Positions 1,364 to 53,620 of a DNA stretch of 57,149 bases are shown here, in pieces. The stretch is taken from positions 1-57,149 of IMG/VR virus record IMGVR_UViG_3300044830_000034. One strand, given 5' to 3'. Under the pieces are notes generated by a model. It saw only the letters and a program-made list of their open reading frames with translations. It was not told the DNA's origin and did not search any database. This DNA comes from a virus. Positions within the stretch are counted from its first letter, which is position 1. Every line of letters begins with the position of its first letter. Both the position numbers and the translations under genes were made by a program.

Positions 1364-1732
1364 GTGAACCCGCTCAGCCTGATCGCCCCCGCGACCGTGG
1401 CGCGTCGCAATGCCCAGAAGGAGGCCGCCACCTTCGCCGCCACCGTCCGCTCCGGCTACACGTACTACTCCGTGGTCGACCTCAACGCGAAGTACCCCGG
1501 GGCGCCCCGCCGGGCCCTCATGGAGTGGACGTTCAGCAAGCCGGGCCGGTGGATCGGCCAGGAGTCCCGCTGCGACCACATGACCGCCGCCGGTGCGTGG
1601 CTCGGCTACGGCCCGCTCCACGCGACGCGCCCCGGCGGCCTGACGACGTTCCAGGAACTGCGCAGGCGGCCCGGCGTCTTCGGCCCCGACCCGGCCGAGG
1701 TCATCAGCCACGCCACCCCGGCGGGTGTCTGA
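1364..1732 (+). CDS. Hypothetical protein
   Basis: A 122-aa protein with a GTG start preceded by GAAGGAGCACC, a strong ribosome-binding site. It is cationic, with several Trp/Tyr residues (TFSKPGRWIG, GYGPLHATRPGG). No recognised domain. It is followed after one base by the next ATG, so the two are probably co-translated. Such short basic proteins are common between regulator and transfer genes of Streptomyces mobile elements, but this one cannot be assigned. Confidence 0.6.
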   Translation: MNPLSLIAPATVARRNAQKEAATFAATVRSGYTYYSVVDLNAKYPGAPRRALMEWTFSKPGRWIGQESRCDHMTAAGAWLGYGPLHATRPGGLTTFQELRRRPGVFGPDPAEVISHATPAGV

Positions 1733-1733
1733 C

Positions 1734-2033
1734 ATGGGCTGGTCCTATGGCGGTCCCACGCGGTCCGCGCTCCAGATGGAGCAGCTCGGCCAGCAGATGG
1801 CGCACGTCCTGCCCGCCCGCCAATGGCGCACCGTCCGGACCCTGTTCGACGCGGTGGAGCACGGCGACGGCCCGTTCACCTTCGATGCCGTCATGGCGCA
1901 CCGGTACGCCGAGGTGTTCCGGGCTGCCGCCGCGCACTCGAAGATGCCTGCCGACTGGGGACGGTTCGCTCTCGACGTGGCCGACCATGCGTCGGCCGCG
2001 ATCCGCTCCGGCGGCCTCTGGCGGTGGTCCTGA
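1734..2033 (+). CDS. Hypothetical protein of a Streptomyces accessory family
   Basis: A 99-aa protein starting at ATG one base after the upstream stop; its own stop overlaps the next ATG. It opens with MGWSYGG and ends in a Trp-rich SGGLWRWS tail. A middle segment (AHVLPARQWRTVRTLFDAV) resembles a short family I remember from Streptomyces chromosomes and mobile elements, annotated only as a domain of unknown function. No catalytic residues can be named. Confidence 0.6.
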   Translation: MGWSYGGPTRSALQMEQLGQQMAHVLPARQWRTVRTLFDAVEHGDGPFTFDAVMAHRYAEVFRAAAAHSKMPADWGRFALDVADHASAAIRSGGLWRWS

Positions 2034-2605
2034 TGTCCGTCGACGTGACCGCGTTCGAGGAGCTGCTGGCCGAGCTGGACTCGGGCGTCGGCGACGAGGC
2101 GGAGGCATGGCTGCACGACCCGACCCGCACCGCGCACCGGTTGGTCACCGTGCCCACCGCAGAGCTGGTGCGGCTGGCGGGTGCCGATCAGCCCGCCCCG
2201 GCTCCGGCCGGCCCGCGGCTTCCCGGCGGGTTGTGGCGGGTGCTGCCGGATCGGCTGCTGTCCCTGCACCCCGCCCGTCGGGGCGAGGGCCTGCAGCGGG
2301 CGCGGATCACCACCACGGAGCACCTGGAGCTGACCGCGCTGGTCCTGGAGCGGTGGGGGTGGGCCAAGTCCGGCCGCCGCATCCGCACTGCGACCGGTGG
2401 CCGCTGCATCCTCGGCGCCCAGCGGGCCGTGCACGCCCTCGGCTACGGCACGGAGCACACCGCCGTCGAGGCGGGGCGGCAGATCCAGGGCGCCCTCGCC
2501 GACCGGGGGATCACGATGCCGTACCCCCGGTGGAACGAGATGCCGGGCGTCACCGGTCCGATGGCGCTCGGGCTGGTCCGCGCCGCAGCGAAGGGGAGTG
2601 CCTGA
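2033..2605 (+). CDS. Hypothetical protein
   Basis: A 190-aa protein coupled on both sides by ATG/TGA overlaps. Residues 1-60 are acidic and helical. The middle is proline and arginine rich. The region around 110-170 (ALVLERWGWAKSGRRIRT, then CILGAQRAVHALGYG) looks like a compact helical domain found in small Streptomyces phage and plasmid proteins. No enzyme motif is visible. Its position just before a membrane protein and the SpdB/TraB-like pair suggests a transfer-operon accessory role, which is inference only. Confidence 0.6.
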   Translation: MSVDVTAFEELLAELDSGVGDEAEAWLHDPTRTAHRLVTVPTAELVRLAGADQPAPAPAGPRLPGGLWRVLPDRLLSLHPARRGEGLQRARITTTEHLELTALVLERWGWAKSGRRIRTATGGRCILGAQRAVHALGYGTEHTAVEAGRQIQGALADRGITMPYPRWNEMPGVTGPMALGLVRAAAKGSA

Positions 2606-2880
2606 TGCCCCGCGTGCTGGTGGTCCGAGCGCCGACCCCGTGGCGGCGAGTGGCGTTGGCGGCCCTCGCGGTCGTCGCGCACCTGCTGCTCGGGGTGCTG
2701 GTGCTGGCCCTCCGCACTGTTCGGGTGATCGTCACCGCCGCCACCGACACCGCTGTCCACGCCGAGCAGCAGCTCGCCGCCCGCACCGGCCGACCGGCCC
2801 TGTCGCAGACCGGCATCGGCGTCCTCGCCGCCGCGTTCGTCCAGGAATTCCTCACCACCTACCGCCAGCCCACCCGATAG
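2605..2880 (+). CDS. Small single-span membrane protein
   Basis: A 91-aa protein starting with an ATG overlapping the upstream stop. Residues about 17-36 form one strong transmembrane segment (VALAALAVVAHLLLGVLVLA). A basic N-terminus precedes it, so the C-terminal ~50 residues probably face outward or lie along the membrane. Small membrane proteins of this kind accompany tra genes in Streptomyces conjugative elements as spread (Spd) proteins. That context fits, but the sequence alone proves only that it is a membrane protein. Confidence 0.65.
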   Translation: MPRVLVVRAPTPWRRVALAALAVVAHLLLGVLVLALRTVRVIVTAATDTAVHAEQQLAARTGRPALSQTGIGVLAAAFVQEFLTTYRQPTR

Positions 2881-2899
2881 CCCCGAAGGAGACATCACC

Positions 2900-4276
2900 G
2901 TGAACGGCCCGACCCTGAACGGCACCAAGCGGCCCCCCGTGCCGACATGGCAGCCGTTCACGCCCATCCACCTCGGCGTCTTCGCCGAACCCGAGACCGC
3001 ACCGGAGCCGGCGCCCGTCGCCGAGCCGGCCATCGACCTGGTGAAGGCCGCCGAGGCTGCCGCGATCCGAGCCCGCACGGAGGCAGAGACCGAGGCCCGG
3101 CGGATCACTGCCGAGGCCGAGGCCAAGGCTATTGAGGTCAAGGCCGAAGTCGATGCTGAGCAGAAGCGCATCGCCAACGATCGCGCCGTGATGCGCCTGG
3201 AGAAGGAGCGCGCCGACCACGAACTCCGGCTCGCCGAGACCAAGCGCAAGCAGGAAGAGGTCGAGCGTCAGCGGGCTGCGGCCAACGCCGCGCGACAGGC
3301 CGAGCAGCAGGCTGAAGCCGACCGGGCCAAGGAGATCGCGACGGCCGACGACAAGTGGCGCAAGTACGCGATCCGCTTCGCCGTCGTCTGCGGGATCGTC
3401 GCCCTGCCTGTCCAGGTCAGCGCGTTCTGGAACCCGAAGGCGCCGTGGCTGGCCGCAGCGCCGGTCATGCTCGAAGCCGGGGCGTGGGTCGTGCAGCGTG
3501 GCGCTGCCGCTGCCGTCGCGAATCGTCGTCCGCTCTGGCACTACAGGGCCATCGCCTGGACGCTCGCCTGCGTCGCCGCTGCCGTCAATCTGTTCCACGG
3601 CCTCTCCCACTTCGATGCGGCGACCGCCTACGCCACCGCCTTCGCCAGCCTCGCCGGCCCGGGTGTGTGGGACCTCCACGAGCACGGCCGGATCCGGAAG
3701 CGCGACGGGGCCCTGACTCGCCGGGAGCAGAAGGCGAAGGAGCGGGCAGAGAAGGGCGTTGCCGCCGAGAGGGCCACCCGCGAGGCCGCCGCGCGAGCCG
3801 AGAAGGACGCCGCCGAGAAGGCGGCCTTCGCCGCCTTCGAACAGCTCGCGAAGGACCGCGAGAAGTTGTACCCGAAGGTGTGGGAGCACGCCGTGAAGCT
3901 GGCCGCCGGACTTGGCGAGACGACTGTCACGGAGTCCGTTTGGAGGCGGGCCCACAAGGACGTCGAGGGCACCGACCCGGGCGACTCGGCTGAGGCTCAG
4001 CAGCTCCGGAATGCGGCTGCGCGGAAGATGCTCGACGCCCGCGCCGACGCCCCCGACAAGACGGTCTGGAAGGCGCCAGAAACGACCACAAACGCACAGG
4101 TCCTTCCACGAGTCCCCTCCGGTGGGCGCAGGGGTTCTGTGACGGGCCCGCCGGTGCGCGGAGTGCGCCGCCCGGGGGACACCGCACCGTTCGTTGACGC
4201 GGCCCGGAAGCAGGCCGCCATCACCGCCAAGAACGCCAGCCACGCCGACATCACCGGCCGCCGAGAGGACTCCTGA
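2900..4276 (+). CDS. SpdB-like (DUF2637-type) spread/transfer membrane protein
   Basis: A 458-aa protein with an AAGGAGA ribosome-binding site and GTG start. Residues about 47-150 are an alanine/glutamate-rich coiled coil. Residues 155-256 hold about four membrane segments, including one ending in QVSAFWNP, the arrangement I associate with the DUF2637/SpdB family. A second charged coiled coil follows (260-320), then a helical C-terminal domain. Spd proteins act with TraB in intramycelial plasmid spread in Streptomyces. The gene ends 3 bp before the TraB-like gene, so the two are presumably co-transcribed. Presence beside a full phage structural module is unusual. Confidence 0.7.
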   Translation: MNGPTLNGTKRPPVPTWQPFTPIHLGVFAEPETAPEPAPVAEPAIDLVKAAEAAAIRARTEAETEARRITAEAEAKAIEVKAEVDAEQKRIANDRAVMRLEKERADHELRLAETKRKQEEVERQRAAANAARQAEQQAEADRAKEIATADDKWRKYAIRFAVVCGIVALPVQVSAFWNPKAPWLAAAPVMLEAGAWVVQRGAAAAVANRRPLWHYRAIAWTLACVAAAVNLFHGLSHFDAATAYATAFASLAGPGVWDLHEHGRIRKRDGALTRREQKAKERAEKGVAAERATREAAARAEKDAAEKAAFAAFEQLAKDREKLYPKVWEHAVKLAAGLGETTVTESVWRRAHKDVEGTDPGDSAEAQQLRNAAARKMLDARADAPDKTVWKAPETTTNAQVLPRVPSGGRRGSVTGPPVRGVRRPGDTAPFVDAARKQAAITAKNASHADITGRREDS

Positions 4277-4279
4277 ACC

Positions 4280-6358
4280 ATGGCCATCGACAGTTCCTCC
4301 CGCACGGCCGCCGACCTCGACGTGCCGGAGTTCCTCCGCCCAGATTACGTCCCCACCAAGCCCGCGGCGCCGGCCGTGACCGCCACCCGTCCGGCGCCGC
4401 GCACCACCCAGTCCGCAGCGCTGGTCGTCGCCAAGGCGACCGGTCGCGGCCTCGGCCACACCGCCCGCGCGGCGGGCACCGGCGGCGGCTGGCTCGGGCG
4501 CGGTCTGCACGGTACGACCCGCGCGGGCTGGCGGTACGTGCGGGCCGCGGACCGGGTCGAGTCCGTCCAGCCGTCCAGCCACGAGAGCTGGGACAAGATC
4601 CGCGAGGAGCGGCACCGCCGATGGATCGCCGCTGCGGGTACTGCCGGTGGCGGGGTCGTCTTGACCGTTGCCGCATCCCTCGGTCTCGTACTCGGCGTCG
4701 GCGTGCCCGCAGGGGAAGCGTTCCTGCTGGCGCCTGCTGCTGAGACCACGATTGCCGGGGCGATCGTCACCGAGTACGGGCGGCGCATCGCCAACCGGCG
4801 GGAACTCGGAGCCGCCCCGGCCGCGCCCGCGATCTCCGGGGGAGCACCCGCCCTCGATGCGTCCGGCGCCCCGCTGTCTCCTGCCGACGACGTGCTCCTC
4901 AAGGCCCTCGCGGACATCAAGGTCCCCGACGGCTTCCGGATCGTTGCCAGCAATCCGGGCCGCGACGGCACCAGCGTCACCATCGTGGACCTGCCCGCCA
5001 ATTTCACCGTGACGTCGCTGAAGGCCAAGGCCGAGGAACTGGCCGGGGCGCTCGGCCGGGACGTGACGATGGTCGACATCACCAAGGCGGCGCACGCCAA
5101 CCAGGCTGCGATCTGGCTGTCCGCCGTCGACCCGTTCGAAGCCGCGCGCCCGTCGCCGCTCATGGACCTTCGGCTCGCCGTTGACGCCTTCCTCGACGGC
5201 GTGCCGGTCGCATGGGGGAAGCGCGGCAACCCGGTCTTGCTGCCGATCAACAACTCCAGCTTCGTTGTCGGAGGCGGAACTCGGTCGGGCAAGGGCGTTG
5301 GAGCCGCCAACCTCGTCACGGGTGCCGCGTTCGATCCGCGCATTAACCTGCGGATCGTCGCCGGGAAGAACAACGGCGAGTGGGACCCGGCCGCCAAAGC
5401 CGGCGTCGCGGCCACGTACTTCAAGCCCGACCCGCACCGCCTGAACGCGCTCCTCAAAGCCCTGTGGGAGGACAAGGACCGGCGGGAGAGGATTCTCGGC
5501 AAGGCGGGCAAGAGCAAGATGACCGCAGCCACGATCATGGAACTCGGCGGCATTGAGCTCCTGGTCATCGATGAGGTCGCCACGTACACGCGGCCCGGCA
5601 ACGTGCTGCGCGACGAGAACCTGAAGCTCCTGACGGATCTGTCGGCTGTCGCCGCCGCGGCCGGCATCCTGATGGTGCTGATCACCCAGTATCCGGAAGT
5701 TGCTGTCATCCCCCAGGCCCTGGCGATGAACTGCACCACCCGGTGGGCGATGCGTGTTGAGAACGCGACCCAGTCGAACGCGATCCTCGGCGAGGGGTCC
5801 TCCGGGGCCGGTCGGGACGCTTCGAAGTTCGACCCGCCGCGGCCCGGACTGGGCTGGCTGATCAACCCCTTCGCGGGAGTCACCGACCTTGCTCGGTCGT
5901 TCGACCTGGACGAGGACGACCGCGGCGAGGTGTCCGAACTGATGGCCCGCGCCGCGAAGATCCGCAGCGCGGCCGGGCGGCTGACCGGGCAGTGGGACGA
6001 CCCGATCGAGCGGGCCCTCGCGGAGGCGACCGGCATGTCCTCTGCGGCCGGCGGCCCGGACCACAACGGTGTGCCAGCGCGGCTGCTGCACCTGCTCGAC
6101 CCGCAGCAGGCCGCCGCGTTCGACGCGCTCACCGACTGCGTGCAGGTCATGGACGACCTCGGCCGAGACGCGCAGGTGGACGAGATGGCGGCCAAGCTGG
6201 CGATGCCTGCCGAGCGACTGAGCGAGCTGCTTCGGGCGGCTGGCGCGGGGCCCACCGGGAAGATCTGGGTCACCGACGCGGACGGCAAGCGGAACCGCGT
6301 CAACGGCTATCAGCGCGATCACCTGCGAGCCCTGCTCGCTCAGGCCAAATCCGCCTAA
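4280..6358 (+). CDS. traB: TraB-like FtsK/SpoIIIE DNA translocase
   Basis: A 692-aa protein. Residues 115-163 form two membrane segments. A P-loop-like VGGGTRSGKG sits near 330-339 and a Walker B ELLVIDEVA near 427. A helical, winged-helix-like C-terminus follows (about 610-690). This is the layout of TraB, the hexameric ATPase that moves double-stranded DNA between Streptomyces hyphae. Oddly, the residue after the P-loop lysine is Gly rather than Ser/Thr, which could lower nucleotide affinity unless it is normal for this subfamily. The clt-like repeats directly downstream support a conjugation role. A phage packaging or chromosome-partition FtsK is the alternative. Confidence 0.8.
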   Translation: MAIDSSSRTAADLDVPEFLRPDYVPTKPAAPAVTATRPAPRTTQSAALVVAKATGRGLGHTARAAGTGGGWLGRGLHGTTRAGWRYVRAADRVESVQPSSHESWDKIREERHRRWIAAAGTAGGGVVLTVAASLGLVLGVGVPAGEAFLLAPAAETTIAGAIVTEYGRRIANRRELGAAPAAPAISGGAPALDASGAPLSPADDVLLKALADIKVPDGFRIVASNPGRDGTSVTIVDLPANFTVTSLKAKAEELAGALGRDVTMVDITKAAHANQAAIWLSAVDPFEAARPSPLMDLRLAVDAFLDGVPVAWGKRGNPVLLPINNSSFVVGGGTRSGKGVGAANLVTGAAFDPRINLRIVAGKNNGEWDPAAKAGVAATYFKPDPHRLNALLKALWEDKDRRERILGKAGKSKMTAATIMELGGIELLVIDEVATYTRPGNVLRDENLKLLTDLSAVAAAAGILMVLITQYPEVAVIPQALAMNCTTRWAMRVENATQSNAILGEGSSGAGRDASKFDPPRPGLGWLINPFAGVTDLARSFDLDEDDRGEVSELMARAAKIRSAAGRLTGQWDDPIERALAEATGMSSAAGGPDHNGVPARLLHLLDPQQAAAFDALTDCVQVMDDLGRDAQVDEMAAKLAMPAERLSELLRAAGAGPTGKIWVTDADGKRNRVNGYQRDHLRALLAQAKSA

Positions 6359-6597
6359 AACACCCCGGACGGTGGGGCGGACAGGCTTGCATCGTCGCAG
6401 GTCAGCACCCGGACACCTGCCCGGACAGCGGGTGGACGGCACCCGGACGCGTCCGCCCCCTGTCCGGGGTCTGTCCGCCGCCCATACCACCGCAAAGCGG
6501 AACGCTGTCCGCCTCACATACCGGGATCAAAGCCGCACCCCACGGACCAGGCCAAGGCCGACCCCGGACCGGCCCAACAAGATCGAAAGGAATCCCC
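6359..6597. repeat. clt/TRS-like repeat region downstream of traB
   Basis: A 239-bp gene-free stretch with repeated CCCGGAC cores. GCACCCGGAC occurs exactly at 6405-6414 and 6439-6448. Variants are CACCCCGGAC (6361-6370), TGCCCGGACA (6418-6427) and GACCCCGGAC (6560-6569), and an inverted TGTCCGGGG lies at 6461-6469. Streptomyces TraB proteins recognise short direct repeats at the clt locus; the pSVH1 8-mer is GACCCGGA as I recall it. The shared ACCCGGA core and the position behind a TraB-like gene make this a candidate transfer locus. The match is suggestive only in GC-rich DNA. Confidence 0.5.
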
Positions 6598-9172: not shown

Positions 9173-9375
9173 GCGCCCAATCCCGCGCCCTGAACGACCT
9201 CGCCGACCACTTCGAATGGCTCCGCGACGGCGACAGCACGCTCTCACGAGCAGGGCGCAACGCCATCCCGCTGTACAACGCATGGCAAGCATTCGACCTC
9301 GCCCACGACGTGATCCGCCGCACCGCCAGCGAGCGGACCTGGCGAGCCCGCATCGGCAGGAGGCTCGGACGATGA
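9169..9375 (+). CDS. Small hypothetical protein
   Basis: A 68-aa basic protein translationally coupled to both neighbours (GTGA and ATGA overlaps). It has a helical core with several aromatic residues and an Arg-rich C-terminus (RTWRARIGRRLGR). No family recognised. Confidence 0.55.
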   Translation: MSAQSRALNDLADHFEWLRDGDSTLSRAGRNAIPLYNAWQAFDLAHDVIRRTASERTWRARIGRRLGR

Positions 9376-9689
9376 CCGACCTCGCCGACTTCCTCCGCGC
9401 CCGGTACGCCGAGCGGCGTGAGCAGGTCCAGGGCCACGACAGCAACTACAACGACGCCGACGGCTGCTGGGGACTCCACGAAGACCCGGCCGACGTCCTC
9501 GCCGACCTGGACACCAAGCGGCGGATCGTGGACGCCTACGCCGAGGTCGCCGAGTTCTACCAGCCCGACCCCGGCGAACGGTACGAGATCGCCGATGGCC
9601 ATGCCGCCGCCCTGCACGATGTCGTCTGCCTGTTCGCCAGCGTGTACGCCAATCACCCCGACTACCGGCAGGAATGGCGGCCCTCTTGA
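9372..9689 (+). CDS. DUF6221-like protein
   Basis: A 105-aa acidic protein with the family hallmarks: DPADVLADLDTKRRIVDAY in the middle and the ending ASVYANHPDYRQEWRPS. It starts at an ATG overlapping the upstream stop. It is a paralogue of the product of 7933-8367. It closes the left rightward operon, followed by a promoter and terminator pair. Confidence 0.75.
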   Translation: MTDLADFLRARYAERREQVQGHDSNYNDADGCWGLHEDPADVLADLDTKRRIVDAYAEVAEFYQPDPGERYEIADGHAAALHDVVCLFASVYANHPDYRQEWRPS

Positions 9690-9708
9690 CACGCCGCCGC
9701 AGAGGTGG

Positions 9709-9738
9709 TTGACCTTCTGACCTGCGCGAGCATATTGT
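9709..9738 (+). promoter_or_regulatory. Sigma-70-type promoter facing a terminator
   Basis: TTGACC (9709-9714) and TATTGT (9733-9738) are separated by 18 bp, a good housekeeping promoter for an actinobacterium. Transcription would begin near 9745 and meet the terminator at 9763-9793 within about 50 bases. Confidence 0.6.
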
Positions 9739-9762
9739 GTGATCGTCTGGAACTTACTGTCG

Positions 9763-9793
9763 AAAGGGGCCACCTCTCAGGTGGCCCCTTTTT
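9763..9793 (+). terminator. Rho-independent terminator
   Basis: A perfect GGGGCCACCT / AGGTGGCCCC stem with a 3-base loop, extended by AAA/TTT and followed by a T tract (TTTTT at 9789-9793). This is the clearest intrinsic terminator in the window. It separates the left gene block from the tail-spike/head block. Confidence 0.85.
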
Positions 9794-9805
9794 GCATGCT
9801 CGGGG

Positions 9806-10066
9806 GTGATCCAACTGCCCGAGCAGCATCTCGTAGACGAGGATCTCGCCGCCTACTTCATCGGCCGACCGAAGTCCACGATCCGCCGATGGGCCGCCGA
9901 AGGCCGCATCGCCCGGCACGAGGACCACAGCGACAGGCGCAACGGCGTCCGCTACGACCTGTGGGAACTCCCCGCCGCCACCCGCGACCCGGACACCAAG
10001 ACTCTGATCGCGCCGGGTGAAGCACCCCCGGTCAAGGCCGCAGCCGACCTCCTCGCCGCCGCATAG
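9806..10066 (+). CDS. Small MerR/Xis-like helix-turn-helix protein
   Basis: An 86-aa protein with a GTG start 12 bases after the terminator. Residues about 10-45 (DEDLAAYFIGRPKSTIRRWAAEGRIARH) match the helix-turn-helix of MerR/excisionase-type DNA-binding domains: an entry helix, then an SxxTIRRW recognition helix and a short wing. The C-terminus is alanine rich. It could act as a late-gene activator, a packaging-site binder or an excisionase. It sits far from the integrase, so excisionase is less favoured. The Shine-Dalgarno is weak (GGGGG directly before the start). Confidence 0.7.
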   Translation: MIQLPEQHLVDEDLAAYFIGRPKSTIRRWAAEGRIARHEDHSDRRNGVRYDLWELPAATRDPDTKTLIAPGEAPPVKAAADLLAAA

Positions 10067-10109
10067 CAGCACCGCAACCGCCACCACCATCACCGCCAGG
10101 AGCTACCCC

Positions 10110-10472
10110 TTGCCTTCCGTTCCCCCGACCATGCGCGTTTTCGTCGTCAACACCGGTGAAGTCCCCACCCTCCACGCCCGCCGTATCGAAGCCGCCTACT
10201 ACGGCATCGAGGACGGCTTCATGACGTTCAAGGACGGCGACCACAAGGCGGTCTTCAGCGTCCGGCCCGACCACCTCGTGTCGATCGAGCGCGCCCACGG
10301 GGCAGAGCCGGTCATGGACGCGTTCGCGCAGGCGCTCCAGCAGGCGGACGCGCAGGGCTCCGCCACCGTCGGCTTCCGCAACGGGACCACCGACGAGACC
10401 AGCGGGCAGACCATCGAGACCGGCTACGACATCACCGTCGAGCGGTTCGGCGGAGTGCGTTCAGCCGCGTAA
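10110..10472 (+). CDS. Hypothetical protein
   Basis: A 120-aa protein. A TTG start at 10110 is chosen because CCAGGAG lies 8 bases upstream; the ATG at 10131 is an alternative. The sequence is beta-rich in the first half (RVFVVNTGEVPTLHARRIEA) with a helical middle. No family recognised. A 178-bp gap after it contains no gene I can support. Confidence 0.6.
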   Translation: MPSVPPTMRVFVVNTGEVPTLHARRIEAAYYGIEDGFMTFKDGDHKAVFSVRPDHLVSIERAHGAEPVMDAFAQALQQADAQGSATVGFRNGTTDETSGQTIETGYDITVERFGGVRSAA

Positions 10473-10650
10473 CCCCCACACTGCCCCGTCGGTTCGCCGA
10501 TATAGGGGCCGCAGGTGGTGCCCTGAGGGCCGATCCTGCCCCGCGCGGCCCGTTCTGACGGCCGGGTCGCGCGGCACTCACTCGTCGTCAATCGAGCGCC
10601 TGTGGCGGGCCGCTCCCGCCCGCGAGGAAACACCACGAGGGAGGCAGGCC

Positions 10651-10950
10651 ATGGCCAACTACACCGGCAGCCGCATCGTTTCCGCCGCCCTCGTAGCGGC
10701 CACCGCTGACACCGTCACCCTTGACGCCGACTACACCGCCGTCGAAATCCTCAACCGCAGCGGCAGCGCGGAGATCTTCGCCACCGTCGACGGCGGGCCC
10801 GCTCCCACCGTCGGCGGCACCAACTGCGACGTGCTGCCTGCCGCGATCGGCTCGCTCACCATCGACGCATCGGCCTACGGCGTCCCCACCGTCGTAAAGC
10901 TCATCAGCTCCGGCACCCCGACCTACACGGTCAAGGGGCTCCTGCGGTGA
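10651..10950 (+). CDS. Small beta-rich phage protein upstream of tail-spike
   Basis: A 99-aa protein with GAGGGAGG before the ATG. The sequence is almost entirely short beta strands (TVTLDADYTAVEILNRSG, TYTVKGLLR) and resembles in style the 109-aa product of 25468-25797. It overlaps the tail-spike gene start by 4 bp, so it is probably a structural partner or base of the spike. Function not established. Confidence 0.6.
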   Translation: MANYTGSRIVSAALVAATADTVTLDADYTAVEILNRSGSAEIFATVDGGPAPTVGGTNCDVLPAAIGSLTIDASAYGVPTVVKLISSGTPTYTVKGLLR

Positions 10951-12626
10951 CCCACAGCCGGCAGGTCTTCGCCCCGCCGGGGCACGCCGACGCGTGGCAG
11001 TTCAACATCGAGGACTACGGCGCCGTCAGCGATGCCAAGGTCGTCGGCGACGGGGCGGTCGTCGGCGGGGTGCCCGCGGTCACCTGCGCCACCAGTACCC
11101 CGTTCTCCGGCAGCCTCGTCGGCAAGCCCGTCCTGATCAAGGGAGCGGGTTCCAACGGCGTCACATCGTTCCGCACGACGTTCTCCGCCTACAACAGCCC
11201 GTCGAGCATGGCGCTGACGGACACCCCGCCGGTCAGCATCACCGGCGCGATCGTCGCCTTCGGCACGAACAGCTACACCGCGATCCGGCTGGCGACGGCC
11301 GCAGCCGAGGCGTACCTCAACGGCACCGGCACCGGCGTGGCCTCCACGCCGCACACCTTCGCCCGGGTCTACACGCCGCCGCGGCCGTACATCGTGGACG
11401 GGCCGCTCGACGTCTCCAAGAGCGGCAACGGGCAGGTCCCGTTCGGCGTCTACCCGACCACCGACGTCAAGAAGGTCATCGAATTCAGCGGCGAGACGAA
11501 CGGCGCCGCCGCGGTCCGCCACTGGGAGCAACTGCTGCCGCAGGTCGCCGGGTCGTGCTGGATCTCCTTCGGGTTCTACGCCTCGACGAGCGCGCAGATC
11601 ACCGACCTGAACGCAAACGGGAACCCCGGCATCATCAGCGGACCGAACGAGGGCACCAGCAACGGCCTCGCCTACGGAGCGGGCGGCCGGTACAGCAACG
11701 TCATGGCGATCATCCGGAACATGGCGCTGCTCAACGCGCACACCGCGTTCGGCATCACCTACGGCATGGCGAACCTCTTCGGCTGCGCCAACGCCCTCGT
11801 CGAGAACGTCGGCGGCGGCACGCTGGGCACCGTGGCATCCCCGAGCGCGGACTACACCAGCCCCGGCGTCTTCGGTACGGGCCTGTCGATCGGACTGCTG
11901 CTGCCGGCCAACGGCAACAACGATCACAACGTGGTCCGCAACCTCAGCATCGGCGGCGGCTACACCTACGGCCTGTTCCTCACCGAGCACGGCCTCGTGG
12001 ACAGGGTGATGGTCCTGTACTGCTGGGCGGGTCTCTGTCCGGTCGGCACTTACGCGGGGTCCTTCGGCGCAACGCACGCGATGAAGGTGCTGCAGGCCAG
12101 CATCGAAGCGTGCGGCCGAGAGTTGTACTTCATCGGCGCCGGCTCCAACGGCGTGACGATCTTCGACTGCGACCAGCTCCAGACGGAGTCAGGGACGCCG
12201 ACGATTGATGGCAACTCGACCGCGGCACTGGCGGCCGTTGTCGGGCGGACCAAGCTGACCGGGCTGTTCACCCCGTCGGGTGTGACCATCGCTCAGCCGT
12301 CGGGGATCGAGCTGGTCAACGGGCAGGTTCCGCGGGCCATCACCATCCAGACCGCGAACTATGCGGCCGGACCGCTGGACCGCACCATCCTGATGGACAC
12401 CACCGCGGGGAACCTGACGCTGTCCCTGCCGGATGCCGACTTCAGCGCGGTCGAGTACATCGCCAAGAACGTCGGTGCGAACACGCTGACGGTCGCGGCG
12501 CTCACGAGCCCGCAGCAGAAGATCGTCGACACGGCGAGCGTCAACAGCATCGCCTTGGCGGCTGGCGCATCAGCCCGGTTGCAGGCGAAGTACAACGGGA
12601 CGGCGTGGAGTTGGTACCGGCTCTGA
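10947..12626 (+). CDS. Beta-helix (pectate-lyase-like) tail-spike protein
   Basis: A 559-aa protein with a GTG start overlapping the upstream stop. The N-terminus has FNIEDYGAVSD, the signature opening of the pectate-lyase-3/right-handed beta-helix fold used by phage tail-spikes and depolymerases. The centre is repetitive beta structure with GGxxxG and NxxxxNV turns. The C-terminus (from about 460) looks like a separate beta-sandwich trimerisation or binding domain. It probably recognises or cleaves a cell-surface polymer. It lies about 22 kb from the other fibre genes, next to the packaging genes, which is an uncommon place. Confidence 0.7.
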   Translation: MTHSRQVFAPPGHADAWQFNIEDYGAVSDAKVVGDGAVVGGVPAVTCATSTPFSGSLVGKPVLIKGAGSNGVTSFRTTFSAYNSPSSMALTDTPPVSITGAIVAFGTNSYTAIRLATAAAEAYLNGTGTGVASTPHTFARVYTPPRPYIVDGPLDVSKSGNGQVPFGVYPTTDVKKVIEFSGETNGAAAVRHWEQLLPQVAGSCWISFGFYASTSAQITDLNANGNPGIISGPNEGTSNGLAYGAGGRYSNVMAIIRNMALLNAHTAFGITYGMANLFGCANALVENVGGGTLGTVASPSADYTSPGVFGTGLSIGLLLPANGNNDHNVVRNLSIGGGYTYGLFLTEHGLVDRVMVLYCWAGLCPVGTYAGSFGATHAMKVLQASIEACGRELYFIGAGSNGVTIFDCDQLQTESGTPTIDGNSTAALAAVVGRTKLTGLFTPSGVTIAQPSGIELVNGQVPRAITIQTANYAAGPLDRTILMDTTAGNLTLSLPDADFSAVEYIAKNVGANTLTVAALTSPQQKIVDTASVNSIALAAGASARLQAKYNGTAWSWYRL

Positions 12627-12629
12627 GCG

Positions 12630-13064
12630 TCAGCCCAGGGTCACGGTGAACCCGCCTGCTCTCGCTGTGGCCTCCGACACGGTGACCGCCTTCCGGTCAG
12701 CAACCCGCACCCGATACGGGCCGGCTCCGGCCGGTACGCCCGGCACCCGGACCGGGAACCGGCACGGCACCGCATAGCCGGCGGGCGCTTTCCCCGGCCC
12801 GAGCGATCCGGTCGCCACCTGCATCCCGTCCTTGCCGAACACCAGGACCGGCGCGCCCTCGGCCACCTTGCCGAAGCCCAGCCCGGACCAGCCCGTGCAG
12901 CTGACTCCGTCCGACGCGTCCGTCGCCCCGGTGGCCAACGTCGCCGAGCCGGACAGGGTGAAGGATCCGGGCTTCGGCTTGGCCGGCGCCGTCGGCGAGG
13001 ACGAGCAGCCCGCCAGCAGCACGAGCAGGGCAACGGGCAGTAGCAATTTCCGCAGATCAGACAT
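12630..13064 (-). CDS. Small secreted lipoprotein (possible superinfection exclusion)
   Basis: A 144-aa protein with a type II signal peptide: MSDLRK, a hydrophobic core, and the lipobox LLAGC with Cys20. The mature part is Ser/Pro rich, then beta-rich (GFGKVAEGAPVLVFGKDG). The ATG at 13064 places the signal correctly; the open frame runs further upstream. It is the only leftward gene in the left 44 kb, convergent with the tail-spike gene and divergent from the HNH gene. Isolated inverted lipoprotein genes in temperate phages are often expressed in the lysogen and block superinfection. That role is inference. Confidence 0.7.
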   Translation of the reverse strand: MSDLRKLLLPVALLVLLAGCSSSPTAPAKPKPGSFTLSGSATLATGATDASDGVSCTGWSGLGFGKVAEGAPVLVFGKDGMQVATGSLGPGKAPAGYAVPCRFPVRVPGVPAGAGPYRVRVADRKAVTVSEATARAGGFTVTLG

Positions 13065-13147
13065 GCGCGCGAGCATCCCAGCCCAGCCCGACGCCCGTGC
13101 CGTATCCACCAGATCGTGATCCGACGGCGCTGATCGGAGTCGCGAAG

Positions 13148-13507
13148 ATGCCCGGACGTACAGGCTGGCGGGTGTGCAGCAAGCCGGGTTGCCCCGAGTT
13201 CACGGACAAGGGTGGCAAGTGTGACGGCTGCCGGTCCGAGGCTGAGCAGCGTCGGGGTAGCGCACGGCAGCGCGGCTACGGCCGCGAGCACGAGCAGCGC
13301 TTCCGGCCCGGCGTGCTCGCCCGCGACCCGGTGTGCGTCCTCTGTGGCGAAGCGCCCAGCGTGCACGCCGACCACTGGCCGCTCGACCGGCGCCAGCTCG
13401 TACACCAGGGCCTCGACGCCGACGACCCACGGCACGGACGCGGGCTGTGCGGGCCGTGCCACGGCAAGGAGACGGCCGCCGCCCAGCCCGGAGGGTGGAA
13501 TGCATGA
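13148..13507 (+). CDS. HNH endonuclease
   Basis: A 119-aa protein with N-terminal CSKPGC and CDGC zinc-binding pairs, then the HNH core: CVLC near residue 76, VHADHWP (first His and Asp), and a final GLCGPCHGKET with the metal-binding His. The ATG at 13148 has GGAG about ten bases upstream; an in-frame GTG at 13097 lacks a ribosome-binding site. HNH proteins next to terminase genes are needed for cos cleavage in HK97-like phages, so a packaging role is likely although TerS is 3.2 kb away. Confidence 0.85.
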   Translation: MPGRTGWRVCSKPGCPEFTDKGGKCDGCRSEAEQRRGSARQRGYGREHEQRFRPGVLARDPVCVLCGEAPSVHADHWPLDRRQLVHQGLDADDPRHGRGLCGPCHGKETAAAQPGGWNA

Positions 13508-13698
13508 CTCGCAACGGCTGGTGGGCGGAGCACGAACCCGATCCCGAGACCAATCCCTTTGCGCCTCGGGCGCCGTGGGTGGCGACACTCCAGACCGACG
13601 TCGGATGCAACACCCTCGGCGGCGTCGCCTTCTACAGCGAAGCCGACTGCCTCACCTTCATACGCGAATGCGTGGTCGGCATGCCCTGCATCGACTGA
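13504..13698 (+). CDS. Small hypothetical protein
   Basis: A 64-aa protein whose ATG overlaps the HNH stop (ATGA). It has Trp-rich N-terminal sequence (NGWWAEHEPDPE) and four cysteines in the second half (CNTL, CLTF, ECVV, CID). No family recognised. Co-translation with the HNH nuclease suggests association. Confidence 0.55.
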   Translation: MTRNGWWAEHEPDPETNPFAPRAPWVATLQTDVGCNTLGGVAFYSEADCLTFIRECVVGMPCID

Positions 13699-13759
13699 GC
13701 CAGGCGGATGGAACCGCCGCGACTGACCCCCCAACGCCTGCGGCCAGCTACCGCAGGAA

Positions 13760-13793
13760 GGAAGCCCCGGTCGCCCCGAGAGCCGGGGCTTCC
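13760..13793 (+). terminator. Strong hairpin without T tract
   Basis: GGAAGCCCCGG (13760-13770) pairs with CCGGGGCTTCC (13783-13793), an 11-bp perfect stem with a 12-base loop. It lies between two coding regions just upstream of the next ribosome-binding site. It may be a processing or pausing signal; without a T run it is not a classical terminator. Confidence 0.45.
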
Positions 13794-13812
13794 GCATCTC
13801 TCGGGAGACATC

Positions 13813-14583
13813 ATGGAAACCCAGTCCGATCAGGACCGCAATGATCACTACGTCCCCGATCGACTCTTCCTCGAAGGGCGCCCCGGCTACGTCGAGATCA
13901 CCCCGCCGCGCGACGGCGTCTACCGGCATGGCCGCGAGACCATCGGCGCCCCCGACGAGCTGAACCGCGACGCGCACTGGCGCTGGGCAGACGTGTCCGG
14001 CGACGGCTCGCACTGGTCCCTCTTCGAAGGCCACCACGTCCAGGTCGACATCGAGCTGCACACCAGCAACCGGCGCGAGGTCAACGACTGGAAGGGCCGC
14101 GACGAGATCCGCGCCGAGGGGACGTGGACGCTCGCCCTCAACCGGCAGCAGGTCTGGGAAGGGTTCATCCGCTCCAATCCGCTGGATCGGCTCATGGAGA
14201 TCCGGCGCGTTGCGCAGCAACTCCTCGAACACGACGCGATCGACTGGCGCTCCGGTGTCCCCCTGGCCGAGCAGTTCCTCGGGCGGCGCGTCTACTACCG
14301 CGACACCCCGGCGGTGGTCTCCAGCGTGAGTTGCCTGGACCAGGGGTGCGTGATGCTTACCCCGGTCGGAGCGGCTCAGTTCCCGATCCCCGCGTGGGGA
14401 TTGGACAAGGACGACTACTACAACGACGAGCCCGAGGCAAAGGTTGACCTGCTCTACCCGCACGTCTGGTGGTGGCGAGACAGGCCCGCAGGCGACGAGG
14501 AGGACCTCCGACCCAAGTACGACGCCGAGGCGCAGGCCAAGGAAGTCCCCGTGCCCGCCGACTCCGACGTGGCGGTGGACTGA
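13813..14583 (+). CDS. Hypothetical protein
   Basis: A 256-aa acidic protein. The ATG at 13813 is preceded by GGGAGA, whereas the upstream in-frame GTG/ATG codons lie within the hairpin. The protein is rich in Trp, Asp and Tyr (YPHVWWWRDRP near the end), with a probable beta-rich N-terminal domain. No motif is recognised. It begins a string of five coupled genes that runs toward the terminase. Confidence 0.6.
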   Translation: METQSDQDRNDHYVPDRLFLEGRPGYVEITPPRDGVYRHGRETIGAPDELNRDAHWRWADVSGDGSHWSLFEGHHVQVDIELHTSNRREVNDWKGRDEIRAEGTWTLALNRQQVWEGFIRSNPLDRLMEIRRVAQQLLEHDAIDWRSGVPLAEQFLGRRVYYRDTPAVVSSVSCLDQGCVMLTPVGAAQFPIPAWGLDKDDYYNDEPEAKVDLLYPHVWWWRDRPAGDEEDLRPKYDAEAQAKEVPVPADSDVAVD

Positions 14584-14584
14584 C

Positions 14585-14986
14585 ATGGCTGACGCGCTGA
14601 AGAGCCATCCCTGCCTTGACGCCCGAGTGGACAGGCACCCCCACGACGCCCACGACTGGGTGGAGCTGTTCAACGGGCCGGTGCACTGCCCCGGGTATGG
14701 CGAGCCGGACGAAGGCGTCAAGGAACCCGCGCCGCCGCAGACTCCCGAGGAGAAGGTCCACGACCTGGAGCATGTCATCCAGCGCGTCCGGGAAGCCGTC
14801 GGCACGGACCAGCCTGTGACCCCGACGGGGGAGCGCATCACCGCACTTGAGACCACCTTGCGGGAGGTCCTCGCGCAGTTCGTCCACGACACGCATCCCG
14901 GCCGCTCCTGCAAGCAGACAGGCCACGTCAACGTCGAGACCGTCCGACGGTGGCATGCGGTGCTCAACGAAGCGGTGACCGGCTGA
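14585..14986 (+). CDS. Hypothetical protein
   Basis: A 133-aa protein beginning one base after the previous stop and ending in an ATGA-type overlap with the next gene. The central part (EKVHDLEHVIQRVREAV) is a likely coiled coil and several His residues are scattered. Unknown function. The C-terminal half resembles helical Streptomyces phage proteins without annotation. Confidence 0.55.
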   Translation: MADALKSHPCLDARVDRHPHDAHDWVELFNGPVHCPGYGEPDEGVKEPAPPQTPEEKVHDLEHVIQRVREAVGTDQPVTPTGERITALETTLREVLAQFVHDTHPGRSCKQTGHVNVETVRRWHAVLNEAVTG

Positions 14987-15660
14987 TGGCCCGCATCCAG
15001 ATCCTCGAACTGCCCGCGACCGGCCGGGGCGACAGCGTGGAGACTCCGTTCGCCCTCGTCATCGACCAAGCCGACGACAGCATCCGCGCGGCGTTCGACC
15101 GGAACGCCGACGTCGAGACGCGGTCACTGCCCGACGGGACGATGTACAGCCTCCAGAGGCCCCTTGCCGAGCAGCTCGGAGCCCGCACCGTCCTGGTCTT
15201 CGATGGCGCCATCGAGATCCCCGCCAGCGGAGTCGATCTCCCGGACGCCGTGCTGGTAGGCGGCGGCAACGATGCGCTCACCGAGATGGCCCGCAGCCGC
15301 GACGAATGGATGGAACGCTCCATCCGGTTCGAAGGGCGCGTTGCACAGATCCGCGAGCAGCGCGAGCAGCACAAGACGGCCATCACGGACGCGCTCGGCA
15401 TAGACCGGATCCGCGACTGGGACGACGTCCTCAACGCCGCCCGGGGCATCCGCCGTGAACGTCAGGCGCAGCGAGACATCATCCAGGCCGCGTACCGCCT
15501 CCATTGCCCCGACAGCTACCAGGGCCAGGAGATCTGCACCCACTGCTCCGCCATTGACGATACGGGTACCAGATACGTGCTGTACCCCTGCGCCACCATC
15601 AAGCTCACCGCCCCGCCCGAACCGGAGACACGGCCCGAGACGCCGGAGCCGACCCCATGA
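14986..15660 (+). CDS. Hypothetical protein with C-terminal Cys pair
   Basis: A 224-aa protein whose ATG overlaps the upstream stop. Residues 1-90 look like a compact beta/alpha domain of about the size of small Streptomyces accessory domains. Residues 95-165 are a long helix (RDEWMERSIRFEGRVAQI). The final part has CPDSY and CTHC, a possible zinc site, then a Pro/Glu tail. No enzyme motif is visible. Coupled to the next gene by 4 bp. Confidence 0.6.
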   Translation: MARIQILELPATGRGDSVETPFALVIDQADDSIRAAFDRNADVETRSLPDGTMYSLQRPLAEQLGARTVLVFDGAIEIPASGVDLPDAVLVGGGNDALTEMARSRDEWMERSIRFEGRVAQIREQREQHKTAITDALGIDRIRDWDDVLNAARGIRRERQAQRDIIQAAYRLHCPDSYQGQEICTHCSAIDDTGTRYVLYPCATIKLTAPPEPETRPETPEPTP

Positions 15661-37041: not shown

Positions 37042-38214
37042 ATGCCCAAACTCCGCGCCCTGGCGCTCGCTTCCGCCTGCCTGCTCGCCGCCCTAGCTGC
37101 GCTGGGGGCCGCTCCTGCCGCTGCCGCACGCGCCACCGCCTGCACCACGACGCTGTGGACGTCCGGCGCGGGCGGTTACAACACCTACCGCATTCCCGCG
37201 ATCGTGAACGACGGCGGCACGCTGGTGGCGTTCGCCGAGGGCCGCCGCAACTCGTCCGCCGACAACGGCGACATCGAGGTGGTCGAGCGGCGCTCGACCG
37301 ACGGCGGCTGCACGTGGACGCCGCAGCAGGTCGCCGCGGATGCGTGGACGGATACCATCGGCAACGAGGTGCCGCTCGTTACCGCCGACGGCACGCTGGT
37401 GCTCGTCACCGACTGGCAGCGCGGCACCGTCACCCAGTCGCAGATCCAGGCCGGCACGGTCAGTGCCGCCGACGGCCGCCGCATTTTCGTCCAGACCTCC
37501 GCCGACCAGGGCGCCACGTGGACCGCCCGCCGCGAGATCACCGGCTCGGTGAAGCGCGCCGCCTGGCTCTGGTATGCAACCGGTCCGGGCCACGGGGTGA
37601 CGATTCAGCACGGCGTGGCTCTCGGTCGCCTGGTGGTCAGCGCCGACCACACCGAATTGGGCAGCCTGCGCGGCGCGCACACGCTGATCAGCGATGACGA
37701 CGGGGCGACGTGGCGGATCGGCGCGGTGGACGATCATGCCGACGGGGTCATCACCCCCGACGAGACCACGGCCGCCGAGCGTCTGGACGGGGCCATGTAC
37801 TTCTCCAGCCGCAACCAGAGCGGCAGCGACCCGGCCCACCGGGCCTACACCTTCAGCCTGTCCAGTGGCAGCACGTTCAGCGCACCGTTCCGGCCGGCTC
37901 CGGCGCTCGTCACCCCGATCGTGGAGGGCTCGCTGCTCCAGGACCCCGGGTATCCGGCGGGCGTCACCTGCGCCCCGCTGCTGTACTCCGGCCCGGAAGA
38001 CCCCAGCGTCCGCCAGCACCTGACGCTGCGCCGCTCCGACGACGGCGGGGTGAGCTGGCGCGACATCGCCGAGATCACCGGCCCGACCGTGCCCGCCGCG
38101 TACTCGGACATGGTCAAGGTCGACCGGAGCCAACTCGGTGTGCTCTACGAGACCGGCAGCCGCGGCCCCTACGAGCGGATCGACTGGACCGCGCTCACCC
38201 TCGGCTGCCCGTAA
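37042..38214 (+). CDS. Secreted exo-sialidase-like protein (GH33, BNR repeats)
   Basis: A 390-aa protein with a signal peptide (basic MPKLR, hydrophobic core, AAAARA near residue 30). It has the sialidase YRIPAIV (Arg50), a downstream FAEGRR, and four Asp-boxes: STDGGCTW (85-92), SADQGATW, SDDDGATW and SDDGGVSW. A TYR-type end (AYSDMV, then GVLYETG) supplies the usual Tyr/Glu. This is the six-bladed propeller of bacterial neuraminidases. The signal peptide implies export through Sec, not virion assembly. It could be lysogenic cargo or act on a wall glycan. Unusual between tail and lysis genes. Confidence 0.82.
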   Translation: MPKLRALALASACLLAALAALGAAPAAAARATACTTTLWTSGAGGYNTYRIPAIVNDGGTLVAFAEGRRNSSADNGDIEVVERRSTDGGCTWTPQQVAADAWTDTIGNEVPLVTADGTLVLVTDWQRGTVTQSQIQAGTVSAADGRRIFVQTSADQGATWTARREITGSVKRAAWLWYATGPGHGVTIQHGVALGRLVVSADHTELGSLRGAHTLISDDDGATWRIGAVDDHADGVITPDETTAAERLDGAMYFSSRNQSGSDPAHRAYTFSLSSGSTFSAPFRPAPALVTPIVEGSLLQDPGYPAGVTCAPLLYSGPEDPSVRQHLTLRRSDDGGVSWRDIAEITGPTVPAAYSDMVKVDRSQLGVLYETGSRGPYERIDWTALTLGCP

Positions 38215-52580: not shown

Positions 52581-52979
52581 TCACGGCTCCGGCCGGCACA
52601 CGGTGCACCCCGGGACGCCCTGGGCGATGGCGGCGCGGGCCTCGGCCAGGGTGACGGTACGGCCGCCGCGGACCAGCCAGCAGCGGGCCGCGTCGTGCAC
52701 CTCGTGGGGTCCGCCGTGCGCGCGGCCGACGGGGGCGATGACCCATGCGGGCTCCGGCGGTTCGGCCGGCTCGCGGGGCACCGCGCTGTAGTCCTCGCCC
52801 TGCACCGGGGTCACGGCCGCCGCGGGGACGGTCAGGGCCACCTCGGCGCGCCACGTCCCGTCCGCCGCCTGGCGCCAGCGGAGGAGGCGGGCCTCGACCG
52901 TCGCGCCACCGGGGAGGGTGAGCTGCACGCGGGGAGGGGGAGGGGGATCGGACACGCGTTCGATCGTAGCGGCGCCCAT
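52581..52979 (-). CDS. DUF6233-like protein
   Basis: A 132-aa protein from ATG 52979. It has a PPPPPRVQLTLPGGATVEARLL start, ALTVPAAAVTPVQGEDYSAVP in the middle and CWLVRGGRTVTLAEARAAI near the end, the pattern of the Streptomyces DUF6233 family, including the conserved GxDY-S-x-V-P. A final CTVC may bind metal. Function unknown. The ATG lies 27 bp from the left end of the insertion element at 53006. Confidence 0.75.
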   Translation of the reverse strand: MGAATIERVSDPPPPPRVQLTLPGGATVEARLLRWRQAADGTWRAEVALTVPAAAVTPVQGEDYSAVPREPAEPPEPAWVIAPVGRAHGGPHEVHDAARCWLVRGGRTVTLAEARAAIAQGVPGCTVCRPEP

Positions 52980-53005
52980 GTGATCGGCCGGGGTCGGAGA
53001 CTGAT

Positions 53006-53542
53006 TGTCCGGTGTCACTGGACCTTGACCGTTCGCCACTGAACTTTGACGACCGGCAGTTTCCTGACACTGAAGTTTGACCGGGTGGGACTCGGCGGCT
53101 TGGAGGGACAGGGGCGCGCCATGAAGGCGGTAGACGATGACGAGGCCGCCGGGGCCCTGACGTACCTCGCCGTGATTCAGATTCGCACTATGGCCCGGCG
53201 CCGGCAGCCCTTCTACGAGTGGATGGGCGAGGACTACGTCGTCTGCATCGGATGGCTTGCCGACCTCGTGCACAACCTGGCAGATCCTCGTGCGCGAACG
53301 AAACCGTGGAGGCTCCGCCGGAAGCGGCCGCACTGCATGGAATACACCTGGGCAGTCGCAGGAGAGGCCGGCCGGAAGTGGATCCTCGACAGCCTGGAGA
53401 AGGAAGGACTCGTGTGGGAGCCGCCGTCAGACACGAGCCTCACAGGCAAGCGCGACCACCACGCGTGAGAGCACGTCGTGCCCCCAAGCGGAGCGCGGTC
53501 AAACTTCAGTGGCAAACGGTCAGGGTTCAGTGGCACGGGACA
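53006..53542 (+). mobile_element. Non-autonomous IS21-like insertion element (537 bp)
   Basis: Both ends start TGTCC and carry related 16-bp repeats. Left: CACTGGACCTTGACCG (53016-53031), CACTGAACTTTGAC (53037-53050), CACTGAAGTTTGACCG (53068-53083). Right, inverted: CGGTCAAACTTCAGTG (53496-53511), CGGTCAGGGTTCAGTG (53517-53532). The element is bounded 5'-TG...CA-3' and flanked by the direct repeat CTGAT (53001-53005 and 53543-53547). Multiple terminal repeats and TG/CA ends are IS21 features. No istA/istB genes lie inside, only a 115-aa ORF, so it must be mobilised in trans. Confidence 0.82.
53121..53468 (+). CDS. Cargo protein of the insertion element, unknown function
   Basis: A 115-aa protein from ATG 53121 with GGAGGGACAGGGG upstream. 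It has an acidic start (DDDEAAGALTYLAVIQIRT), a central WMGEDYVVCIGWLADLVHNL and a basic AKPWR-like stretch (RARTKPWRLRRKRPHC). It ends with GRKWILDSLEKEGLVWEPP, resembling a winged-helix tail. It is not a transposase. It is entirely inside the terminal repeats, so it travels with them. Role unknown; a passenger regulator is possible. Confidence 0.65.
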   Translation: MKAVDDDEAAGALTYLAVIQIRTMARRRQPFYEWMGEDYVVCIGWLADLVHNLADPRARTKPWRLRRKRPHCMEYTWAVAGEAGRKWILDSLEKEGLVWEPPSDTSLTGKRDHHA

Positions 53543-53620
53543 CTGATCGCTTGTGCGCAATTCTGTTCGAAATATGCAACGCAGTGTGACAGCTGGCCCG
53601 ACGGTGGTCTGCGATCGATC

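Follow-up and report, generated by a model that had tools for sequence, protein, structure and literature searches.

A single-gene cassette with Tn7-like ends in an actinobacterial phage, a probable non-autonomous transposon mobilised in trans

Background

Actinobacterial Tn7-like transposons, which encode a TnsA protein of NCBIfam family NF033179 together with TnsB, TnsC (TniB) and TniQ, have a counterpart in the Actinobacteria-dominated TnsB clade described by Benler et al. 2021 (PMC8649781), a clade described there as experimentally uncharacterised. The existence of trans-mobilised, transposase-less relatives of such elements is already known in principle from the tni-defective members of the Tn5053 family (Tn6606, In0/In2 and the class 1 integrons), which are moved by tni functions acting in trans and are flanked by 5-bp repeats (PMC7765201). 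Mobile insertion cassettes (MICs) and MITEs are also short, transposase-less, equipped with one gene or none, and moved in trans, and the known examples descend from IS elements that have one transposase; in a 2024 review of MITEs in prokaryotes (PMC10969869), Tn7 appears only in connection with its target site. A search of the openly accessible literature found no account of non-autonomous Tn7-like single-gene cassettes in Streptomyces, or of DUF6233 genes as a target.

The element described here, a 537-base cassette in a phage genome, resembles the tni-defective Tn5053 elements in having TnsB/TniA-type ends around its cargo, 5-bp duplications and, across its family, preferred targets. While the tni-defective elements are kilobases long, have the 25-bp IR of Tn402 and target res sites beside resolvase genes, the actinobacterial cassettes carry one small gene and are found at DUF6233 and other intergenic sites, and their presumed helper, unlike that of the Tn5053 family, includes TnsA; movement in trans, known for the former, is proposed here for the cassette. 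Its brevity, single gene and lack of a transposase recall the MICs and MITEs, but its ends point to a multi-protein helper and not to a single-transposase IS element.

The phage element and its surroundings

The window, as the whole analysed stretch of DNA is called here, is a complete IMG/VR virus record of 57,149 bp; its source is a temperate actinobacterial phage, and family matches in PHROGs include a large terminase, an FtsK-like protein and an integrase. The cassette occupies positions 53006-53542, between a DUF6233-family gene on its left, which reads away from it, and on its right an antirepressor-like gene whose product has a C-terminal domain of the RhuM family. The principal features are as follows.

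52581-52980, minus strand: DUF6233-family gene (Pfam PF19746, E 3e-9), its 5' end toward the cassette
53001-53005: target-site duplication CTGAT, left copy, directly outside the left arm
53006-53050, plus strand: left terminal inverted repeat (TGTCC...), with two TnsB-like sites spaced by 21 bp, a layout as in TnsABC elements
53065-53083, plus strand: third of the inner repeats in the left end, preceded by the spacer GACCGGCAGTTTCCTG
53121-53468, plus strand: cargo gene of 115 aa with an ATG start, assigned to no known family, with a homologue in Actinacidiphila guanduensis
53498-53542, minus strand: right terminal inverted repeat, with two repeats spaced by 21 bp (units 53496-53514 and 53517-53535)
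53543-53547: target-site duplication CTGAT, right copy, directly outside the right arm

An earlier note on this DNA had described ends that match over about 40 bp and carry extra inward repeats, a flanking CTGAT direct repeat, a single 115-aa ORF with no transposase, and an insertion beside a DUF6233-like gene, and each of these observations held up, the ORF content by both ORF reading and homologue search. The two 45-nt arms are complementary at 39 of 45 positions (87%). Subrepeats of the form CACTGAA-nn-TTGAC(C) start at 53016, 53037 and, after a longer spacer, 53068 in the left end, and 19-bp units start at 53496 and 53517 in the right end, giving three units on the left and two on the right with a basic spacing of 21 bp. 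Repeated putative TnsB-binding sites at both ends, together with a 5-bp target duplication, are the arrangement expected of a Tn7-like element. A profile built on such ends scores both window ends above 70, as compared with -10 for the best of 50 shuffles of a 12-kb sequence. The element is present once in the record, and no homologue of TnsA, TnsB, TnsC or TniQ was found in it or anywhere else in the window.

The cargo ORF is, judged by sequence comparison, a real gene under purifying selection, because its product is 84% identical to the homologue from Actinacidiphila guanduensis, with a dN/dS of about 0.25. That second copy of the cargo (locus L009) lies in a different place and has decayed ends. 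The protein matched no family in Pfam, NCBIfam, PHROGs or PADLOC, no homologue was found on plasmids, and its AlphaFold2 model is all-helical with a pLDDT of 60.6.

In phage and plasmid collections, relatives of the window resemble it only in the antirepressor and a few other genes. The same phage genome encodes a TROVE/Ro60-like RNA-binding protein (phrog_850, 42914-44533) and an RNA-ligase-like ORF (phrog_548, 47492-48454), and a secreted sialidase/BNR-repeat-like ORF, recognised by eye in translation, lies at 37042-38214 amid tail and lysis genes.

Sister elements in Streptomycetaceae

A search with the end pattern, allowing up to 3 mismatches, found it in 30 of 297 Streptomycetaceae genomes, as compared with 0 of 297 for a control in which the pattern was read backwards; among 394 Actinomycetes genomes it occurred in two, both of them Streptomycetaceae already counted. 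Profile scoring of the fetched regions then delimited 21 paired elements of 0.5-2.2 kb. Exact 5-bp duplications flank 14 of these, representing at least 13 independent cases (L064 and L071 are probably one and the same insertion), with tandem or nested cases (L050, L160) left out of the count or noted. The duplicated sequences vary: ATCCC, CCTGG, GTTGC, CCCGG, CGGGA, GTGGC, GCTGA, CCACC, GTCGG, CCACA, CCGGT, CCAGG and CTGAT. The cargo also varies, and includes a NUDIX hydrolase (L054), a GNAT acetyltransferase (L055; the 219-aa ORF of L085 is homologous to it), a DUF4352 lipoprotein (L062) and unknown proteins, while the ends that enclose a Ser/Thr kinase (L081) and an FAD oxidoreductase (L082) have no matching duplication. 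None of the ORFs between paired sister ends was recognised as istA, istB or a tns gene; L071 contains a nested IS630-like transposase ORF.

Several loci are composite in structure. An end inside L050 (4321-6075), at 4832, has the same flank, which suggests two tandem cassettes at one site. At L160 (G139:C13, about 9310-15487), the right end of a cassette holding a 132-aa ORF is interrupted by a Tn7-like element of another kind, which has ends TGTCCCGTCTCA... and has duplicated GATTG. In G086 and G133, identical ends occur near both chromosome ends, probably because the chromosomes are linear and each terminal inverted repeat has its own copy.

The prediction that related copies would exist elsewhere, at other sites and with other 5-bp duplications, was thus confirmed by the sister elements, which together with the cargo copy at L009 also dispose of the concern that there might be no other copies anywhere. 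As for empty sites, these were recovered for sister elements (see below), but the search of phage and plasmid collections for an unoccupied version of the window's own site (GGGGTCGGAGACTGATCGCTTGTGC) returned none.

Autonomous elements with the same ends

Most loci with a PF09299 TnsB-type gene in the 30 end-bearing genomes represent different Tn7-like subfamilies, whose ends are also different, and were set aside as candidate helpers; L157 and L160 have separate cassettes nearby, and among these loci only L155 carries the motif. L155 is a 4.7-kb element with cassette-like ends that encodes TnsA-like, TnsB-like, TniB/TnsC-like and TniQ-like proteins. Its TnsB, used as a query, led to complete operons on Streptomyces plasmids, and the end profile was found to bound these operons, with the left end about 100 bp 5' of tnsA and the other end beyond the operon. 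The bounded elements are listed below by locus.

L166: 8136-13828
L169: 8148-14652, 5-bp duplication CTGGG
L171: 8149-13599, on the S. anulatus plasmid NZ_CP109512
L172: 8150-13336
L173: 8148-14190, 5-bp duplication GCCGG
L174: 1-5420
L175: 8151-13960, 5-bp duplication CCCGA

No matching duplications were seen at L155, L166, L171 or L172. The third repeat of the window's left end, with its spacer GACCGGCAGTTTCCTG, recurs at the tnsA-side end of L166, L171, L172 and L173; the right end of L166 matches the window's left end at 39 of 45 positions, and that of L167 matches the window's right end at 40 of 45, so that these ends are as close to those of the cassette as the latter are to each other. 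The ends of the window element are therefore held in common with an operon for a TnsB DDE transposase (with rve and Mu-transpos_C domains), a TnsC AAA ATPase (TniB/AAA), TnsA and TniQ. The TnsA of L166 and L171 belongs to NF033179 (TnsA_like_Actin), and TniQ is recognised weakly by Pfam in some operons, or not at all. A PF09299 TnsB-type gene was undetected in half of the 30 end-bearing genomes, so the helper appears to be currently missing in places.

Target sites

Site C is a homologous site at which cassette L004 and autonomous L166 occupy the same position, one that is empty at the L081 and L002 loci. This coincidence bears upon the reading that survives best beside the preferred one, namely that the cassettes were left by internal deletion of autonomous Tn7-like elements and are dead, with leftover genes, and immobile today. 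Decayed ends or lost duplications at L009, L056 and L077 fit such a history, as does the absence of helpers from half of the genomes. Perfect 5-bp duplications and near-identical ends, the carriage of a cassette by a phage, purifying selection on a cargo gene, and the occupation by cassettes of the same sites as autonomous elements all speak against it, and suggest instead movement as cassettes; the remnant explanation is regarded as unlikely.

Site A accounts for eight elements (L050, L051, L054, L055, L057, L058, L085 and L210), each upstream of a DUF6233 gene or of what is left of one. They end near a GAATCGAAC box, at a distance of 34-38 bp in the five for which a script measured it, and the far flank is also alike where both flanks are available (GTTCCACGG..GTGACCTGCGGTAGTGATGTCCGTGGAACGC). 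No resolvase was recognised by eye beside the site. The site is unoccupied and contiguous at L199, L202 and L203, and each of these genomes also holds an occupied copy. Given some 36 DUF6233 genes across roughly 270 Mb, the chance of landing within 100 bp upstream of one is ~1e-5 per element, a rough figure that ignores shared ancestry. That ancestry might in principle be the whole explanation, with one ancient insertion, or homologous recombination, in place of targeting, and the common GNAT cargo and orientation of L055 and L085 would agree with it. The other elements, however, differ in cargo (NUDIX, APH-like, unknown), their insertion points differ by a few bases, their duplications differ, and empty and occupied copies occur within one genome; a single origin is accordingly improbable for the site. 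By comparison of these loci, the cassette family has Tn7-like targeting of specific sites.

The window's own DUF6233 gene has two possible starts (ATG at 52980 or GTG at 52955), and the cassette is inserted 26-51 bp upstream of them. A GATCGAAC box is found 40 bp from the cassette end, followed by GTG-Ser-Asp as in the site A genes. The DUF6233 context and this box are all that the window site has in common with site A; the remainder is dissimilar, so its membership in the family's DUF6233 targeting is suggestive only.

Other loci were also noted. Intergenic flanks rich in GTTGCA and TGTCGCGC repeats surround L005, L062, L064, L065, L071, L075 and L083, and possibly represent a further shared target site. 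A 5-kb element at the DUF6233 site (L218 in G133, 1473-6504) carries an APH-like phosphotransferase and two IS110-like ORFs, recognised by eye.

IS21 as a candidate helper

The ends of IS21 elements begin with TGT and contain multiple inner repeats, and on this likeness the cassette had been related to IS21, with a search for a full IS21 element bearing the same ends proposed as a check. Matches to the C-terminal domain of IstA (PF22483) number 53, spread over 22 of the 30 end-bearing genomes; nevertheless, none of the 30 best IstA loci has a cassette-type end within 1.5 kb (the top score, -11.6, is within the shuffle range), no full element with such ends was found among them, and it is the TnsABC operons that carry the ends, so that a mobile insertion cassette of IS21, served by IstA/IstB, is highly improbable and IS21 was rejected as the helper.

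Discussion

Because TnsABC operons bear the same ends and IS21 loci do not, the window element is very probably a non-autonomous actinobacterial Tn7-like transposon, in which a cargo cassette lies between TnsB-type ends and is moved in trans; it would be a derivative and not a full member of that group, since neither the element nor the window encodes TnsABC or TniQ. With the actinobacterial Tn7-like transposons it shares its end layout, 5-bp duplications and, through L004 and L166, a target site in the family, and it differs from them in its length of 537 bp, its one cargo gene and its want of any transposition gene. The earlier note's broader claim, of a helper-dependent mobile cassette without a transposase, thereby gains support from the sister elements and their duplications, with movement in trans as the probable route.

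In the mechanism envisaged, TnsA, TnsB, TnsC and TniQ would come from an autonomous element located elsewhere in the cell, and these proteins would bind the cassette ends, with their arrays of repeats resembling TnsB-binding sites. The cassette would then be excised or, alternatively, copied; TnsC and TniQ would choose the target, with TniQ presumably directing the choice of site, and joining to the target would leave the 5-bp duplications. Preference would go to a small number of conserved intergenic sites, among them the one immediately upstream of DUF6233 genes.

A wider proposal, for which the balance is even, is that Streptomycetaceae host an integron-like shuffling of genes, in which single-gene cassettes with Tn7-type ends are moved in trans by TnsABC-TniQ into a few shared sites (notably upstream of DUF6233 genes), and ride phages and linear plasmids between hosts. 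Through such cassettes, individual genes would be able to spread in Streptomyces and among its phages with no transposase of their own. For a clade of Tn7-like transposases that is still uncharacterised, they also supply minimal ends in ready form and candidates for attachment sites. With the helper operons and sites listed above, both trans-mobilisation and targeting by TniQ can be tested directly in laboratory Streptomyces, where tools for site-specific insertion would be useful.
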